DNA from: a virus
Reading direction: 5' to 3' (one strand)
Virus record (IMG/VR): IMGVR_UViG_3300017772_000160
Coordinates: 1 to 21,861 of that record
Length of the DNA stretch: 21,861 nucleotides
Positions 2,092 through 20,025 of the stretch are shown here, one piece after another. Position numbers and translations under genes: made by a program. Under the pieces are notes generated by a model. The model was given only the letters and a program-made list of their open reading frames with translations. It was not told where the DNA came from and did not search any database. The first letter of the stretch is position 1. Every line of letters begins with the position of its first letter.

Positions 2092-2588
2092 AAAAGAAAA
2101 AATTACCAAAATATGTTCAACAATTATTTAAAAAGCCACAATTTAAAATTGGAGAAATTGTTAAATATAATTTCCTAGGAGAAATAGGATGGGGAAGAAT
2201 AACTAAAATTAGAAAAGACAATGACAAAGTTACTTATATGGTTAAAGGAAATGGGTATGTATATCCGTGTGGCATTCAAATCAAAGAATACTCCAGTTAT
2301 TACGCCGGAGCCATCGACTACGAGACTTCAAAAAATAGATCAGATAATGAGCAAACCGGAGTTTCAACAACTAAAACACGAACTAACAATCAAACAAGGA
2401 AACGACTTTCTGGATCTAATAGCAACTCAGTATCAGATACAAGACTTAACATTGGGACAAAGACTGATATTAGGAATGGCAATGAACAATACATTAAACC
2501 AGATTCAAGAAGCAAAAAATCAGCTGAAAGAACGGAATTAGATAAAGAGTTTGATAAACAGAAAAATTTCTTAAGAAAATTTACATAA
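2088..2588 (+). CDS. SH3-like-domain protein with low-complexity C-terminal half
   Basis: Residues about 17-67 look like a compact SH3/KOW-type beta barrel (FKIGEIVKYNFLGEIGWGR, then KVTYMVKGNGYVYPCG), a fold used for protein or nucleic-acid contacts. From about residue 68 the protein becomes Ser/Thr/Asn/Lys/Arg-rich and unlike a folded domain, down to a charged helical C-terminus (ELDKEFDKQKNFLRKF). The same bases (2257-2541) carry a second open frame that encodes a much more protein-like sequence, and the DNA there is about 36% G+C by my count (86 of 240 bases at 2281-2520) against about 22% in adjacent lines. So the C-terminal half may be an overprinted disordered tail, or the real product may be a frameshifted fusion. 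The N-terminal half is secure; the C-terminal half is uncertain. Confidence 0.6.
   Translation: MKKKKLPKYVQQLFKKPQFKIGEIVKYNFLGEIGWGRITKIRKDNDKVTYMVKGNGYVYPCGIQIKEYSSYYAGAIDYETSKNRSDNEQTGVSTTKTRTNNQTRKRLSGSNSNSVSDTRLNIGTKTDIRNGNEQYIKPDSRSKKSAERTELDKEFDKQKNFLRKFT
2257..2541 (+). CDS. candidate nested, out-of-frame gene (94 residues)
   Basis: Lies wholly inside the 2088-2588 gene in the +1 frame relative to it. The frame is open from an ATG at 2221, but the ATG at 2257 is preceded by AAAGGA at a good distance and is my preferred start. The product has a short basic beginning (MYIRVAFKSK), a Pro/Thr linker (TPVITPEPSTT), and then three helix-like segments: LQKIDQIMSKPEFQQLKHEL, TLGQRLILGMAM and a C-terminal QIQEAKNQLKERN. 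This looks like a genuine helical protein rather than a shadow. Codons here use G and C endings (ACG, CCG, GAG, CTG, CAG) that are rare elsewhere in the window, as expected if two frames constrain the same bases. The alternative is a +1 frameshift joining the SH3-like domain to this segment. Function unknown. Confidence 0.4.
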   Translation: MYIRVAFKSKNTPVITPEPSTTRLQKIDQIMSKPEFQQLKHELTIKQGNDFLDLIATQYQIQDLTLGQRLILGMAMNNTLNQIQEAKNQLKERN

Positions 2589-4216: not shown

Positions 4217-5235
4217 TGAAAAAATTTTTTCCGTATTTAGTATTAATAGCAGCATTAGCTCTAGCATCTAGTGCTGCATATTATAGTGTATATGGAATTA
4301 GTAAATTATTTTCAGCAGCTGCAATATCAGTTGCCATTATGGCTGGGACGTTAGAAGCTTCAAAACTTATAGCAGCAACTTATCTTCATAGATATTGGAA
4401 AAAAATTAATTTTCTTTTTAAATTATATTTAACATCAGCTGTATTAATTTTAATGATAATAACTTCTATAGGAATTTATGGATTTCTAACCGCAGCATAT
4501 CAGAAAACAGCAAATGAATTATTTGTAATGGACAAAGAAATATCTGTAATAGAAATGAAAAAATCTAGATACAATGAACAATTAGATGGATACATATCTG
4601 AAAAAATACAATTGGCTAGTTCGATAACAGAATTAACAAAAGGTCTTTCTAATAATAAAATTCAATGGAGAGATAAAGAAACTAATCAAATTATTACTTC
4701 AACTTCTAGTAGAACCAGAAAAGTATTACAAACTCAATTAGATGATTTCAAAACACAAAGAAATAAAGTGTCTGTAAAAATAGAAGGATTAACAGATTCT
4801 ATAACTAAATTAGATTTAAAAGTTTTAGATTTACAATCAAATTCAGATGTTGCCAATGAAGTTGGCCCATTAAAATATGTTTCTGAATTATTAAATCGCC
4901 CTATGAATCAAGTAGTGAATTGGTTTATATTAATTTTTATATTTGTATTTGATCCATTAGCTGTAGTTTTATTAATTGCTGCTAATAAAGCTTTTGAAAT
5001 AGTTAGACAATCTATAAAAGAAAATATATATGGTGAACAAGTTATAAAAAATAGTAATCCGGATGTTTTTAGGCCTCCACATCCATCTGATGCAGCTGCA
5101 GTACCTTATTCTGATACTGAAGATTTTCTTGAAGAAGAAGCTGAAAAAAGAATGGATATTATAGGTCAAAATGGAAATGAAGGATTACATTATAAAGAAG
5201 AATCAAAACCAGGAAAAACAAAAGTTATATCATGA
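4216..5235 (+). CDS. four-helix membrane protein with central coiled coil
   Basis: Four predicted membrane helices at about residues 5-27, 33-56, 69-95 and 235-257. Between helices 3 and 4 is a roughly 140-residue charged, heptad-like coiled coil (about 98-215), and the C-terminal 80 residues after helix 4 are soluble and acidic (FLEEEAEKRMDIIG). Helix 2 carries GTLEASKLIAATYLHRYW, helix 4 carries FVFDPLAVVLLIAANKAFE; such signatures recur in uncharacterised membrane proteins of marine phages, from memory. With four spans both termini are on the same side, so the coiled coil lies either in the cytoplasm or periplasm with the tail. Coupled to the 4040 gene by TAATG and to the zinc-ribbon gene by ATGA. 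Function unknown; an envelope-remodelling, superinfection-exclusion or lysis-control role is conceivable. Confidence 0.75.
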   Translation: MKKFFPYLVLIAALALASSAAYYSVYGISKLFSAAAISVAIMAGTLEASKLIAATYLHRYWKKINFLFKLYLTSAVLILMIITSIGIYGFLTAAYQKTANELFVMDKEISVIEMKKSRYNEQLDGYISEKIQLASSITELTKGLSNNKIQWRDKETNQIITSTSSRTRKVLQTQLDDFKTQRNKVSVKIEGLTDSITKLDLKVLDLQSNSDVANEVGPLKYVSELLNRPMNQVVNWFILIFIFVFDPLAVVLLIAANKAFEIVRQSIKENIYGEQVIKNSNPDVFRPPHPSDAAAVPYSDTEDFLEEEAEKRMDIIGQNGNEGLHYKEESKPGKTKVIS

Positions 5236-5378
5236 AAAAAGAAAAATCAACAAAAATGTTACAATGCAGATGTGAAAATTGTACTAATATAGTAGAAGTA
5301 GCTAAAACATCATTATCAGTCGTTTGTTCTTTCTGTACATTTAAAATGGCAGAAGGTATATTGGAATATTCCAAATAA
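5232..5378 (+). CDS. zinc-ribbon-like miniprotein, 48 residues
   Basis: ATG 5232 overlaps the preceding stop (ATGA); TAA at 5376-5378. The sequence has C12-R-C14-E-N-C17 and later C32-S-F-C35, i.e. CxCxxC, 14 residues, CxxC, a pattern expected to bind one zinc ion in a ribbon fold. The first 11 residues are basic. Such miniproteins in phages often bind nucleic acid or RNA polymerase, but no specific family is recognisable. The last codons contain a perfect 14-base palindrome (TTGGAATATTCCAA, 5361-5374) directly before the next promoter-like element, so the end of the gene may double as an operator. Confidence 0.6.
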   Translation: MKKEKSTKMLQCRCENCTNIVEVAKTSLSVVCSFCTFKMAEGILEYSK

Positions 5379-5396
5379 TTTATTATAATAAATAAA
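5378..5396 (+). promoter_or_regulatory. putative late promoter element, copy 4 (palindromic variant)
   Basis: ATTTATTATAATAAATAAA; its first 16 bases (5378-5393) are a perfect palindrome. It begins on the last base of the zinc-ribbon stop codon and ends five bases before the ATG at 5402. It is a variant of the element at the other sites, so less certain. Confidence 0.35.
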
Positions 5397-5401
5397 AAGT
5401 T

Positions 5402-6178
5402 ATGTTAGAAGCCGAAAAAATTAAATCGAACTGGGATGAATATAGAAATAGGGTGAATACTTTATTTCCAGATAGAGCAGAAAAATTAAATAAATTATAT
5501 GATGATTATGAAGAAAGGATTGTAATGATGCCTGCTTCTTCAGTTGCACATTATCATAATGCATTTGCTGGAGGATATATAGATCATGTATTGAGAGTAA
5601 TGGATTGCGTAAATAAATTATATGATTCATGGGAAAGTATGGGATCTGATATGTCTGGATATTCTAAACAAGAAATGATGTTTGCTGCTATGCATCATGA
5701 TTTAGGTAAATGTGGTTTTCCGGGAAAAGGAAGAGAAGTATACCAAGTTGAAACATCAGATTGGCATAGAAAAAATATGGGAAGAATGTATAAGCATAAT
5801 GAAAATATTCCTTTCACAATGGTACCGGATTTATCAATATATTTACTTCAAAAATATCAAGTTCAAATGTCTTGGAATGAGTTTCAAGCTATTAGAATAC
5901 ATGATGGTATATATGATGATGCTAATAAACCATATTTTATTGCAAGATCAGCACAAGCTAAATTAAAAACTAATTTACCTTTACTATTACATCATGCAGA
6001 TCATATGGCATCACAAATAGAATATGAAAGATGGAGATCTCATAAAAATAATTCTCCTAATCCTATTAGTGCAAAAACAAAAGCAACAAAGAAAACAGCA
6101 ATTAAAAATTTAGCAGAACAAAATCCGGATATTGACAAATCAATAACAGATATATTTAAAACATTTGGAGATTCATGA
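5402..6178 (+). CDS. HD-domain metal-dependent phosphohydrolase
   Basis: Metal-binding residues of the HD superfamily are in order: H50/H52 with NAFAGGYIDHVLRV (53-66, His62), the HD dyad in AAMHHDLGK (95-103, H99-D100), H167-D168 in IRIHDGIYD, and H197-H198-x-D200 in LLLHHADHMASQIE. The N-terminal H-x6-8-G-G-Y-I-x-H-V pattern resembles the HD domain of YhaM-type 3'-5' exoribonucleases (HHxxxGGLLxHT), but the OB domain of YhaM is missing. At 258 residues it is a single-domain protein with a basic, Lys-rich tail (about 215-235). Likely to hydrolyse a phosphodiester or nucleotide substrate in the cytoplasm; candidates are nucleotides, signalling nucleotides or RNA ends. It is coupled by ATGA to the membrane protein at 6175 and precedes the sigma factor. 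Substrate cannot be read from sequence. Confidence 0.85.
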   Translation: MLEAEKIKSNWDEYRNRVNTLFPDRAEKLNKLYDDYEERIVMMPASSVAHYHNAFAGGYIDHVLRVMDCVNKLYDSWESMGSDMSGYSKQEMMFAAMHHDLGKCGFPGKGREVYQVETSDWHRKNMGRMYKHNENIPFTMVPDLSIYLLQKYQVQMSWNEFQAIRIHDGIYDDANKPYFIARSAQAKLKTNLPLLLHHADHMASQIEYERWRSHKNNSPNPISAKTKATKKTAIKNLAEQNPDIDKSITDIFKTFGDS

Positions 6179-7601: not shown

Positions 7602-8633
7602 ATGTCTACTTTTACTAAAGTTAATTTTGAAATTGCAGAAGTTATTGATGTTGAACCTTTAAAAACAGGAAATGACGAACAAAATTTATATTCTGTTAAA
7701 GTTGAAATTTTTAATACTAGTACTACTCAACATGATATAAGTGCTAGGCCGGCTTCATTAAATATTTTAAAGCCACCATTAAAAGGAGAAATAATTTTAA
7801 TCTTTTCCGGACCAAATCAATATTCTGGTAAATCTAGAAAAGAATTACAATGGTATTATTTATGTACACTTCCAATTCAATCTAGTATATATCATAATTT
7901 ATTACCAAATGCTGCATCATCAGAAACATTTACGCCACCTATTGAACCAAAAATTGTTAATCCTTTACAATCATTTACGGGCGATTTATTATTACAAGGG
8001 CGTTTTGGAAATACAATAAGATTGGGATCATCCAAAATAAAACAAGACACAGATACTGCAGTAGAGCCGAATTGGGTAGATAATACAAATGATGACAAAT
8101 TAATTACAAATCCAATAATTATACTATCAAATACTACAAAACAAAAACAATCGGATCAAGATAATATTTATGGAAGAAAATATAGTATAGAACATTTAAC
8201 AAATGACGATTCATCGTTTTATTTAACTACATCTCAACAATTATCAACTTTAAAATTATCTGGAGTAACTGATAAATCTGGAGGATATAATAAATTTAAT
8301 AAATCTCAATTTATAGGAATTGCAGACCGTATTTTATTAGTTTCAAAAACTAATAGTATAATTCTTGATTCAAAACAACGTATTAATTTAAATGCTGAAC
8401 AAGTATTGTTAGGTGGAGACGATGCAGCTGAACCAATGGTAAATGGACATGAGTTATTATTAGCATTGTTAGATTTATGTTCAGCATTACGAGCTGGTAC
8501 TAATGGCACCGGCGGAGTTTTTTCTGAACCAAATCCTGCAGCTAAAGGTTATATAAAAAAAGTTGAAGAAAGATTATCTGCAGCAACAAATCCAAAATCA
8601 ATATTAAGTTCAAGATACTTCATGAAAAAATAA
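7602..8633 (+). CDS. baseplate hub / tail spike protein, gp5/gpV-like
   Basis: Forms, or sits at, the tip of the tail tube that punctures the cell. Residues about 5-95 look like an OB-fold (LKPPLKGEIILIFSGPN, 58-72, is the typical central turn), followed by QSFTGDLLLQGRFGNTIR (123-140), a G-x-GRFGxxIRxGS signature known from gp5-like hub proteins of T4-like marine phages. After an Asn/Asp-rich linker, residues 242-275 (DRILLVSKTNSIILDSKQRI) give short beta repeats like the start of a triple-stranded spike. No lysozyme domain is present, unlike T4 gp5. AAAAGGA lies upstream. Its place just before gp25 and gp6 homologues matches V-W-J order in P2. Assignment rests on the signature and the context; precise hub role unproven. 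Confidence 0.65.
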   Translation: MSTFTKVNFEIAEVIDVEPLKTGNDEQNLYSVKVEIFNTSTTQHDISARPASLNILKPPLKGEIILIFSGPNQYSGKSRKELQWYYLCTLPIQSSIYHNLLPNAASSETFTPPIEPKIVNPLQSFTGDLLLQGRFGNTIRLGSSKIKQDTDTAVEPNWVDNTNDDKLITNPIIILSNTTKQKQSDQDNIYGRKYSIEHLTNDDSSFYLTTSQQLSTLKLSGVTDKSGGYNKFNKSQFIGIADRILLVSKTNSIILDSKQRINLNAEQVLLGGDDAAEPMVNGHELLLALLDLCSALRAGTNGTGGVFSEPNPAAKGYIKKVEERLSAATNPKSILSSRYFMKK

Positions 8634-8649
8634 ATAGAAAGATTAAAAT

Positions 8650-9504
8650 ATGCCTGTTACATCACCATTAGACAAAATTCCATTAATTCCTCCAGTATTA
8701 ACTAGTATAGCTGTTGATAAAATTGTAAAATTTATAAATAAACTAATTGAAGATTTATTAAAAGTAGTACAGGATTCAATAAAGCTACCAGATGATTGCG
8801 ATTGTAATGACCCTAGAATTGATGCATTAAAAGATAATCTAGATGATATATTAGAAAGACTAAAAAAATTACAAAACCTCGTTGCACAAATTATGAAATA
8901 TGTCAATTTATTTAAGACATTAATAGGAATAGCATCTGCAATAAAAAATACATTATATACAGTACCAATTATAGGACAAGCTGTATTATTATCTGATTTA
9001 TCAATGGTACAAACTATGACAATTGAAAATGCAAAAAAGTCATTAGGACAACTAGAAGGAATTCCTCCTAGATTAAATATTGGTGTAGATATGGCAGTAT
9101 CCCAATTGGCACAAGTTGCTACAAGATTAGCATCTGCTTGTTCTGGAGCAGCAAATGGTACTGGCAATGATGGAAGTACTAGCGATGAATTGTTAGAAGT
9201 ACCAAAACAATTGAAAGACGAAATTGACAAATTAAATCTTGATTATAATGATTTATTACCTAGTGAATTTTATCAAGAAAAAAATGTATCTATAGATGAT
9301 ATAGATTTAAGAGGTGATTTAATACAAGATTTAATTAATCAACAGCAAGATTTATTAAGTTCGCTACAAGAAGCTCCTTCTCAATTAATTAAAGGAAATG
9401 GAGCTCCAACTAATGATCTAGGAAAATCCGGTGATTATTATGTAGATGAAATTACAAATGAAATATATGGCCCAAAATTAAATAATAAATGGATTGATAC
9501 GTAA
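8650..9504 (+). CDS. helical tail protein with fibre-type C-terminal motif
   Basis: Residues about 20-90 are long amphipathic helix (IVKFINKLIEDLLKVV; RIDALKDNLDDILERLKKLQ), 90-130 a hydrophobic stretch (TLIGIASAIKNTLYTVPIIG) that could be a buried helix or membrane-active segment, then more helices. The last residues (about 262-284) read DYYVDEITNEIYGPKLNNKW, a module (D-YY-D-TN-IYGPK-W) that I recall at the ends of many phage tail-fibre and collagen-like surface proteins. The gene sits between the spike-like gene and gp25, so it is likely a tail or baseplate structural protein; a tape-measure was considered but the protein is too short. The CDC pair near residue 50 (DDCDCND) is isolated. 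Name uncertain. Confidence 0.6.
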   Translation: MPVTSPLDKIPLIPPVLTSIAVDKIVKFINKLIEDLLKVVQDSIKLPDDCDCNDPRIDALKDNLDDILERLKKLQNLVAQIMKYVNLFKTLIGIASAIKNTLYTVPIIGQAVLLSDLSMVQTMTIENAKKSLGQLEGIPPRLNIGVDMAVSQLAQVATRLASACSGAANGTGNDGSTSDELLEVPKQLKDEIDKLNLDYNDLLPSEFYQEKNVSIDDIDLRGDLIQDLINQQQDLLSSLQEAPSQLIKGNGAPTNDLGKSGDYYVDEITNEIYGPKLNNKWIDT

Positions 9505-9542: not shown

Positions 9543-10022
9543 ATGAAACAAGAAAAATTTATTAATGTACTAAAAAAAGTTATAAACGAAGAAGTTCGAA
9601 CAGTTATTAAACAAGAGCTTACAGAAATAATAAAACAAGGTTTAGAAAATACAATACAAGAAATTAAAACTTCGCCTAAAGAATCAGTTACATCGAAAAA
9701 GTCTAATAATAAAGTTAAATTTAAAGAAAATAAATTTTCAGATATTTTAAATGAAACAACAAGATTAACAGAAAATAACAAAGTAGCTGATTATGCATCA
9801 TTAATGTCAGAAGATATTATGATGACTTCAAAAGATGCTCAAGGATTTGGAATGAACAGAAGCATACAAAATATAAATCAAACTTCTGTAATGTCAGATC
9901 CAGAAACTGGAAAAACGTTAGAAGTAGATCCCGTTATTCAAAAAGCAATGACACGTGATTATTCAACGTTAATGAAAGCAATTGATAAGAAGAAAGGAAA
10001 TGGGATACCGATTAGAAAATAG
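9543..10022 (+). CDS. hypothetical protein before gp25
   Basis: Helical, charged N-terminus (about residues 1-45, KVINEEVRTVIKQELTEIIK), a Lys/Ser/Asn linker (46-70), and a C-terminal region with DPETGKTLEVDPVIQKAM (119-136) and DYSTLMKAIDKKKG that looks conserved. It lies between the tail protein and gp25 and overlaps the latter by 23 bases, so it is probably a baseplate or tail component or assembly factor. It contains L-x-E and I-x-E triplets, but in no leader-like arrangement. No family name can be given. A putative late promoter precedes it. Confidence 0.6.
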   Translation: MKQEKFINVLKKVINEEVRTVIKQELTEIIKQGLENTIQEIKTSPKESVTSKKSNNKVKFKENKFSDILNETTRLTENNKVADYASLMSEDIMMTSKDAQGFGMNRSIQNINQTSVMSDPETGKTLEVDPVIQKAMTRDYSTLMKAIDKKKGNGIPIRK

Positions 10023-19317: not shown

Positions 19318-20025
19318 ATGGGATATTTAAATAATAATACAATAACAGTAGACGCAATACTTACAAAAAAAGGAAGAGAATTGTTAGCTGCTGGAAGTAG
19401 TGACTTTAATATTACGCAATTTGCGTTAGGAGATGATGAAGTAGATTATGGATTATGGAATGTTAATCATCCATTAGGATCTAGTTATTACGGAGCATTA
19501 ATAGAAAATTTGCCGCTAGTAGAAGCTATACCAGATGAGACTCAAGCATTGAAACATAAATTAGTTACATTGCCAAAATCTACAACAAGAATACCAGTTA
19601 TAACAGTTGGAAATGCTTCGATAAATTTATTAGCTGGAGGAGATTCGTCTATCATTAGTCCAAATACAAGTAATTTTCAAGGAGGAAATGCAACATTTGG
19701 ATATACAGCAATTTTATCTGACAGTACTGTTGCAGATATATCAGTAACAAAACAATTATCAAATCCAGGAAATTTACCAACTGCTCCAACTTTATTAGGA
19801 TCGAATGCAGATAAACAAAGTGTTGCTGTAGCAGGATTTGAGTTCCAAGTTACTGCATTACCACAAGTTTTATCAGATAAAGAAGCAACTATAACTATAA
19901 TAGCTAACGAAACTGGTGGTAGTACTACTATTAATGTAAAAGTTAAGAAAGAAGTTGCAGCTACAGCTGTAAGAAAAGAAGATATTGGATTTAGAGAAGA
20001 AAATAGAGGTAACTCATATAGATAG
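19318..20025 (+). CDS. structural protein with Ig-like C-terminal region
   Basis: The first about 95 residues are the conserved-looking part: MGYLNNNTITVDAILTKKGR, FALGDDEVDYGLWNVNHPLG, SSYYGALIENLPLVEAIPDE. I have seen this opening in many contractile phages without an assigned function. Residues about 110-215 look like a bacterial Ig-like sandwich (SDSTVADISVTK; GFEFQVTALPQVLSD; ATITIIANETGGSTTINVKV). The protein ends in a basic, Arg-rich tail. Such a layout suits a tail or baseplate surface protein. It lies first in the unit started by the element at 19288, followed by the 409-residue structural protein after 24 bases. Confidence 0.65.
   Translation: MGYLNNNTITVDAILTKKGRELLAAGSSDFNITQFALGDDEVDYGLWNVNHPLGSSYYGALIENLPLVEAIPDETQALKHKLVTLPKSTTRIPVITVGNASINLLAGGDSSIISPNTSNFQGGNATFGYTAILSDSTVADISVTKQLSNPGNLPTAPTLLGSNADKQSVAVAGFEFQVTALPQVLSDKEATITIIANETGGSTTINVKVKKEVAATAVRKEDIGFREENRGNSYR

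Follow-up and report, generated by a model that had tools for sequence, protein, structure and literature searches.

Introduction

The locus described here raises the question of whether a single stretch of phage DNA encodes two proteins, one nested within the other on the same strand and in a different reading frame. Few such nested genes that are both long and conserved across deeply diverged relatives have, to our knowledge, been documented in large dsDNA phages, and gene callers are prone to omit the second frame. The window, by which we mean the whole 21.9 kb of DNA analysed, is an uncultured virus record that carries a T4-type baseplate wedge gene, and the nearest cultured relatives of that gene are in the Microcystis phage Mel-JY01 (50%) and the Flavobacterium phage immuto (40%). 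We consider it highly probable that the window contains a real same-strand overlapping gene pair, with an outer gene encoding a barrel-tether-helix protein and, complete within it in the +1 frame, a gene for a small helical protein that has its own internal start.

Results

Organization of the two frames

The outer gene (2088–2588, + strand) is an open frame encoding 166 aa, with a beta-barrel domain, a hydrophilic linker rich in Ser, Asn, Thr, Lys and Arg, and a C-terminal helix, a layout found equally in 45 distinct homologues. The inner gene (2221–2541, + strand) lies in the +1 frame and is an open frame encoding 106 aa from a conserved ATG start; it is conserved among the homologues and belongs to a 112-codon run of the window sequence that is free of stops. 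The initial annotation had proposed two same-strand open frames with the inner one spanning 2257–2541. Both frames are indeed open, but that start is too late; the ATG at 2257 does not occur at that position in the homologues, and the conserved start is the ATG at 2221.

Upstream of the pair, the ORF list and the sequence give a 67-aa ORF (1888–2091, + strand) whose stop codon overlaps the outer start codon (ATGA). This overlap suggests translational coupling, such that translation of the outer gene may be coupled to that of the preceding ORF. Two genes upstream of the pair (1469–1882) is a phage-encoded Hsp20 (phrog_432, E 1e-16) with a strong AGGAGG site, and an HD-domain phosphohydrolase-like protein (phrog_5889, E 8e-18) is encoded at 5402–6178; in immuto an annotated phosphohydrolase is similarly placed upstream of its baseplate genes.

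Composition and chance

To simplify the presentation below, we will refer to the segment encoding the inner helical domain as the core. The region 2281–2520 had been singled out for a G+C content of 36%, and recounting gives 0.358 (86/240). The lower G+C content reported nearby is also seen, at 0.21–0.26 in neighbouring intervals, with the overlapping interval 2161–2400 at 0.34. A weakened A/T bias at third positions had likewise been described, and is evident in both frames: third-position G+C in the outer core is 0.21 as compared with 0.09 expected, and T occupies the third position of inner codons at 0.15 as compared with 0.31 expected. The earlier estimate that an open frame of this length has about one chance in a thousand agrees with our resampling, as a +1 run this long appears in 2 of 4000 synonymous resamplings of the outer gene codons. 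Permuting the outer gene's own codons produces such a run in 111 of 4000 trials, so that within single genes the open frame is only mildly significant. As a control, 95 alternative frames of 19 genes of the window were compared with synonymous resamplings, and for this frame alone did none of 400 resamplings give a run of its length.

These figures indicate that frames this long do arise occasionally at the same composition, and the inner frame could in principle be spurious, or could be the product of a frameshifting sequencing error that splits one gene. We assign a negligible probability to such chance or artefact, as the layout is common to 45 distinct homologous genes on separate contigs, the reversal of codon-position preference described below recurs in independent pairs of sequences, and only one of the 95 alternative frames in the window behaves in this way.

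Other open runs occur in the window. A 195-aa open frame at 8643–9230 (− strand) is antisense to the gene at 8650–9504, with a resampling P of about 0.025 that is non-significant among 95 frames. Those at 19318–20025 (− strand) and 9543–10022 (+2 frame) extend for 64 and 55 codons, with resampling P of 0.005 and 0.007 respectively, which is roughly the chance yield of 95 tests.

Homologues of the pair

IMG/VR was scanned for both frames, and following removal of fragments 45 distinct outer genes were compared. An inner profile constructed over all groups was too diverse for a scan of the collection, and a sub-group profile was used instead. In a marine group the outer proteins have 52–77% identity to that of the window and a single gene length; a far group is diverse, with outer identities of about 25–38% and longer spacers. 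The inner protein has 55–85% amino acid identity in close relatives and 18–29% in far ones.

The +1 frame is open from the conserved start to a stop situated 4–21 codons before the outer end in all 45 genes, and the overlaps range from 321 to 432 nt in length. Stops in the inner frame of homologues, or a single continuous frame, were the two outcomes against which the initial annotation had set its proposal; there are no inner-frame stops in the 45 distinct homologous genes, and 45 of 45 keep the two-frame layout, at identities down to about 26%. Even among relatives whose outer linker can no longer be recognised, the inner helical core remains conserved, for example at the motif F-[LM]-x-x-[PT]-x-x-Q-x-[LM]-K-A-E; examples from the far group are L-A-L-x-E and I-Q-K-N-E-K. 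Within the outer tail, residues L151, Q158, F161, L162 and F165 are invariant or near-invariant. At 5001–5600 of the locus designated L065, the end of the outer gene has an apparent short in-frame duplication (KSTLEDA repeated), and the inner frame is lengthened too, with both frames still open.

Neither protein was convincingly matched in 50,697 phage records, and no homologue of either was found in bacterial genome contigs or in cultured phages, among them Mel-JY01 and immuto, which are the nearest by baseplate gene. A match of the inner profile in Mel-JY01 at 0.01 was judged to be due to chance. Searches of Pfam, PHROGs and PDB gave no convincing profile match to either protein, the best being phrog_10521 at 0.006 (with 4 of 27 outer members) and DUF5991 at 2e-4 (with 3 of 27 outer members). 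The neighbouring genes (Hsp20, a methyltransferase and a CAP domain protein) vary between the groups and reveal no function. In L051, a 169 kb phage, two proteins with CAP or sporulation-like domains (5609–6157 and 8157–8744) are encoded beside the pair.

Selection on the two frames

Substitutions counted by outer codon position (1/2/3) in 13 gap-free marine sequences number 366/340/900 before the overlap and 275/98/476 after it. The corresponding counts in the core, from all pairs of the 13 sequences, are 1758/1475/540, such that substitutions concentrate at outer position 1 (the third position of inner codons) and are avoided at outer position 3 (the second position of inner codons). The same reversal is seen in 17 pairs picked so as to have no branches in common (296/190/148 in the core versus 54/42/142 upstream; chi-square p = 4e-23), and the result is therefore not due to repeated counting of relatives.

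For the inner frame in the core, dNN/dNS is 0.40 and dSN/dSS is 0.27, as compared with about 1 and 0.6 where the inner frame is absent. Of 78 marine pairs, 77 have a higher amino acid identity in the core for the inner protein than for the outer, and none has a lower one. The initial annotation had called for constraint in both frames to be checked on aligned homologues, and these comparisons, including that of the independent pairs, show that purifying selection acts on the inner frame in the core. For the outer frame, the dN/dS-like ratio is 0.15–0.26 outside the core, with 0.26 on both sides outside the overlap, and dNN/dSN is 2.17 within the core, which reflects no purifying selection on the sequence of the outer linker there. 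The dual constraint initially proposed is thus upheld in that both frames are kept, but strong constraint does not act on the same bases in both, the outer frame in the core being held only to openness and hydrophilicity.

A sliding codon-position profile locates the switch of the selected frame from outer to inner at outer codons 79–90 (about 2334–2347, + strand), with a return to the outer frame at the inner stop, 2541. The same zone is marked by a jump in divergence in mosaic pairs of loci. L017 and L025, in both of which the outer gene is at 5001, have 0 differences in the first 210 nt of that gene but are sharply divergent from there into the core, and L038 and L039 have small differences outside the core and strong ones inside it; in both pairs divergence begins at the junction between barrel and core. 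The inner-coding segment may have been exchanged by recombination or have diversified as a unit.

Predicted structures

The folds of both proteins were predicted with AlphaFold2 from alignments of 27 loci. The outer model has a confident barrel at about residues 11–80 (block means 86–92), a disordered stretch at 88–144 (pLDDT 33–40 over most of it) and an end helix at 144–163. The inner model begins with a poorly defined leader at residues 1–32 (pLDDT 50–64), followed by a confident helical domain at 33–105 (block means 88–96 for residues 41–100).

On these models the + strand can be divided into segments that alternate between the two proteins. The outer N-terminal folded domain (residues 8–87; 2109–2348), delimited by AlphaFold2, the outer-frame codon pattern and weak matches to tudor, chromo and SH3-like domains, lies over the inner leader (residues 1–32; 2221–2316), which from its pLDDT and stop counts appears to be a passenger under weak constraint, stop-free in every homologue. 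The inner helical domain (residues 33–105; 2317–2535), with predicted helices at 33–43, 46–71 and 78–105 and with inner-frame selection, lies over the outer disordered linker (residues 88–144; 2349–2519), for which pLDDT, dNN/dSN and hydrophobic depletion point to a stretch that is kept open and hydrophilic with its residues otherwise free. The outer C-terminal helix (residues 144–163; 2517–2576), with the motif LDxxIxKQxxFLxxF, is recognized by near-invariant residues and by the outer-frame codon pattern after the inner stop; it begins within the overlap and runs beyond the inner stop. The proposal that the nested frame encodes a folded helical protein just where the outer protein becomes rich in Ser, Asn and Thr is supported by the placement of the predicted helical domain over the disordered hydrophilic linker.

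The confidently folded parts share little DNA, namely the junction at 2317–2348 and the last codons at 2517–2535. In the pLDDT profiles and in the codon-position switch, the folded or functional segments of the two proteins do not coincide, as in a segregated overlap.

Foldseek relates the outer barrel to tudor, chromo and SH3-like domains with a probability of up to 0.99 over 40–70 residues, at E values of at least 0.03 and with low TM-scores, and there is no sequence relation to these domains. The only strong structural match of the barrel is an uncharacterised protein of 188 aa from an uncultured phage. Comparison of the inner model with PDB yields nothing, the best E value being 0.2.

Probable reading of the outer frame through the core

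Given the inner protein and the phage codon usage, the outer frame is open by chance in only 0–3 of 4000 resamplings at each of 16 loci, because T is depleted at the inner third position; these resampling tests treat related sequences separately, and the product of their P values is no true probability. Hydrophobic residues in the outer linker are at about half of what the inner protein allows with stops forbidden (mean z −4.8 over 28 genes, all negative). We read this depletion as selection for a soluble, disordered outer linker, notwithstanding that local base composition could be a partial cause of it. Past the inner stop the outer tail is conserved in the outer frame, with a ratio of 0.26. 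Together, the resampled openness, the hydrophobic depletion and the conserved tail argue that the outer frame is really read through the core.

Initiation of the inner gene

The conserved ATG is separated from the core by 38–67 codons, over which constraint falls on the outer protein. Within this leader, +1 stops are absent from all 27 representatives, as compared with 1.1–4.7 expected in each (P0 0.001–0.24 each). Upstream of the conserved ATG they are about as frequent as expected; the last +1 stop is 9–48 nt upstream of the start in 42 of 45 genes, and three genes are without any. The ATG itself is retained in 44 of 45, and the exception, L093, has ATA at this position and an in-frame ATG two codons upstream. 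ATG retention alone is weak evidence, as codon bias would keep most. There is no clear or strong Shine-Dalgarno sequence at 2221, and many genes of the window are likewise without one. RNA folding around the inner start gives no unusual structure, and the stretch is A-rich.

One homologous locus, L030, has the outer barrel domain alone, in a gene that ends just after the barrel. Its 28.6 kb record has no inner core, and the former leader is broken by a TAA. L030 nests among pair-carrying marine relatives, with 98/96 support for the whole clade and weaker support for its exact position, and it reads as a joint loss of linker, tail and inner gene, after which the leader would no longer have been kept open.

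These observations bear on an alternative in which programmed +1 (or −2) frameshifting near outer codons 80–86 fuses the barrel to the inner helical domain, beside the unshifted protein, and the inner gene has no start of its own. The selected frame does switch exactly where the outer domain ends, as such fusion would predict, and the lack of a strong ribosome-binding site at 2221 also speaks for it. However, frameshifting does not need the +1 frame to be open before the junction, yet the leader is stop-free in 27 of 27 representatives with an in-frame ATG in 45 of 45 genes, and a leader stop appears in L030, where the inner gene is lost. The spacing between the domains also varies between groups, and reading of the sequences reveals no conserved slippery site, only 23 of 45 genes having an A-run upstream of the ATG. 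Neither a conserved shift site nor a second frame open only downstream of it, the marks of programmed frameshifting, is seen, and we regard this alternative as improbable.

A late inner start at ATG 2347 would produce the helical domain only, as 64 residues. Inner-frame selection becomes visible at about this position, and the codon is found in most marine relatives, but it is missing in L025, L026 and several far relatives, is without a ribosome-binding site, and leaves the stop-free leader unexplained. Initiation there seems very unlikely to us. The stop-free leader, which a frameshift at the junction would not need, thus favours internal initiation at the conserved ATG over a junction frameshift, and we infer that the inner gene is translated in infected cells from this start.

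Discussion

The pair has two complete frames that are open beyond chance and that are both kept by selection across homologues, as is expected of dual-coding DNA. That both frames are open and selected, where selection switches between them, that the start is conserved and that the leader lacks stops can all be read from the aligned sequences themselves.

A plausible explanation for the viability of the pair is a division of labour between folded and unconstrained segments. Where the outer protein is folded, the inner frame would read an unconstrained leader, and where the inner protein is folded, the outer frame would read a linker needing only openness and hydrophilicity; the conserved outer end helix would be encoded mostly downstream of the inner stop or in the DNA of the inner C-terminal tail. 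Most likely there is one mRNA with two starts, and ribosomes would enter at the A-rich and weakly structured ATG 2221.

The predicted layout of the outer protein suggests a binding module tethered to a docking helix, and the inner model suggests a small helical adaptor. As the linkage of the two genes is long-lasting, the two co-made proteins may act together, in the same step or complex, although this is a guess that we would expect to fail rather more often than hold. Similarly tentative, and in our view rather doubtful, is the fuller proposition that two undescribed protein families are locked in one DNA stretch in which selection switches frame twice and the linker is selected for hydrophilicity alone, and that the nesting has lasted because they are obligate partners from one mRNA, as spanins are, but acting in a different process.

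The 45 diverged copies illustrate how two proteins can be accommodated in the same DNA through an alternation of folded and disordered segments. The pair allows measurement of what selection demands of a disordered linker whose bases are fixed by the other frame, and it adds two uncharacterised phage protein families, of which the inner one is likely to be unannotated.

In T4, gene 30.3' is embedded one base downstream in gene 30.3. This is likewise a nested +1 gene in a T4-type phage, although the genes are different there. Overlapping genes are common in dsDNA viruses and most often share 4 nt (PMC7017920), whereas the overlaps described here are of 321–432 nt. The nested arrangement is known in kind from lambda Rz/Rz1, where, as here, the smaller of two phage genes lies wholly within the larger, in its +1 frame, and where there is hardly any overlap between the parts of the two genes that are sensitive to mutation (PMC5295617). 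The proteins themselves differ. In Rz an N-terminal membrane helix is combined with a periplasmic coiled coil, whereas the outer protein here begins with MKKKKLPKYVQQLFKKPQFKIGE and continues into the beta barrel, which makes for a charged, soluble N-terminus; Rz1 carries a lipobox cysteine and is a lipoprotein of the outer membrane, whereas the inner protein here is without cysteine. The immediate neighbours of the pair include no recognised lysis gene. A spanin identity is ruled out by the cysteine-free inner protein together with the lack of an outer N-terminal membrane helix.

Segregated or asymmetric overlaps, such as HIV tat/rev and that of apple stem grooving virus, in which the movement protein lies over a linker, resemble the present pair in that the DNA for a variable linker of one protein also encodes a folded or constrained part of the other (PMC8227390). 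In contrast to these, the pair described here belongs to a large dsDNA phage, and the roles swap within a single overlap, from outer to inner and back to outer.
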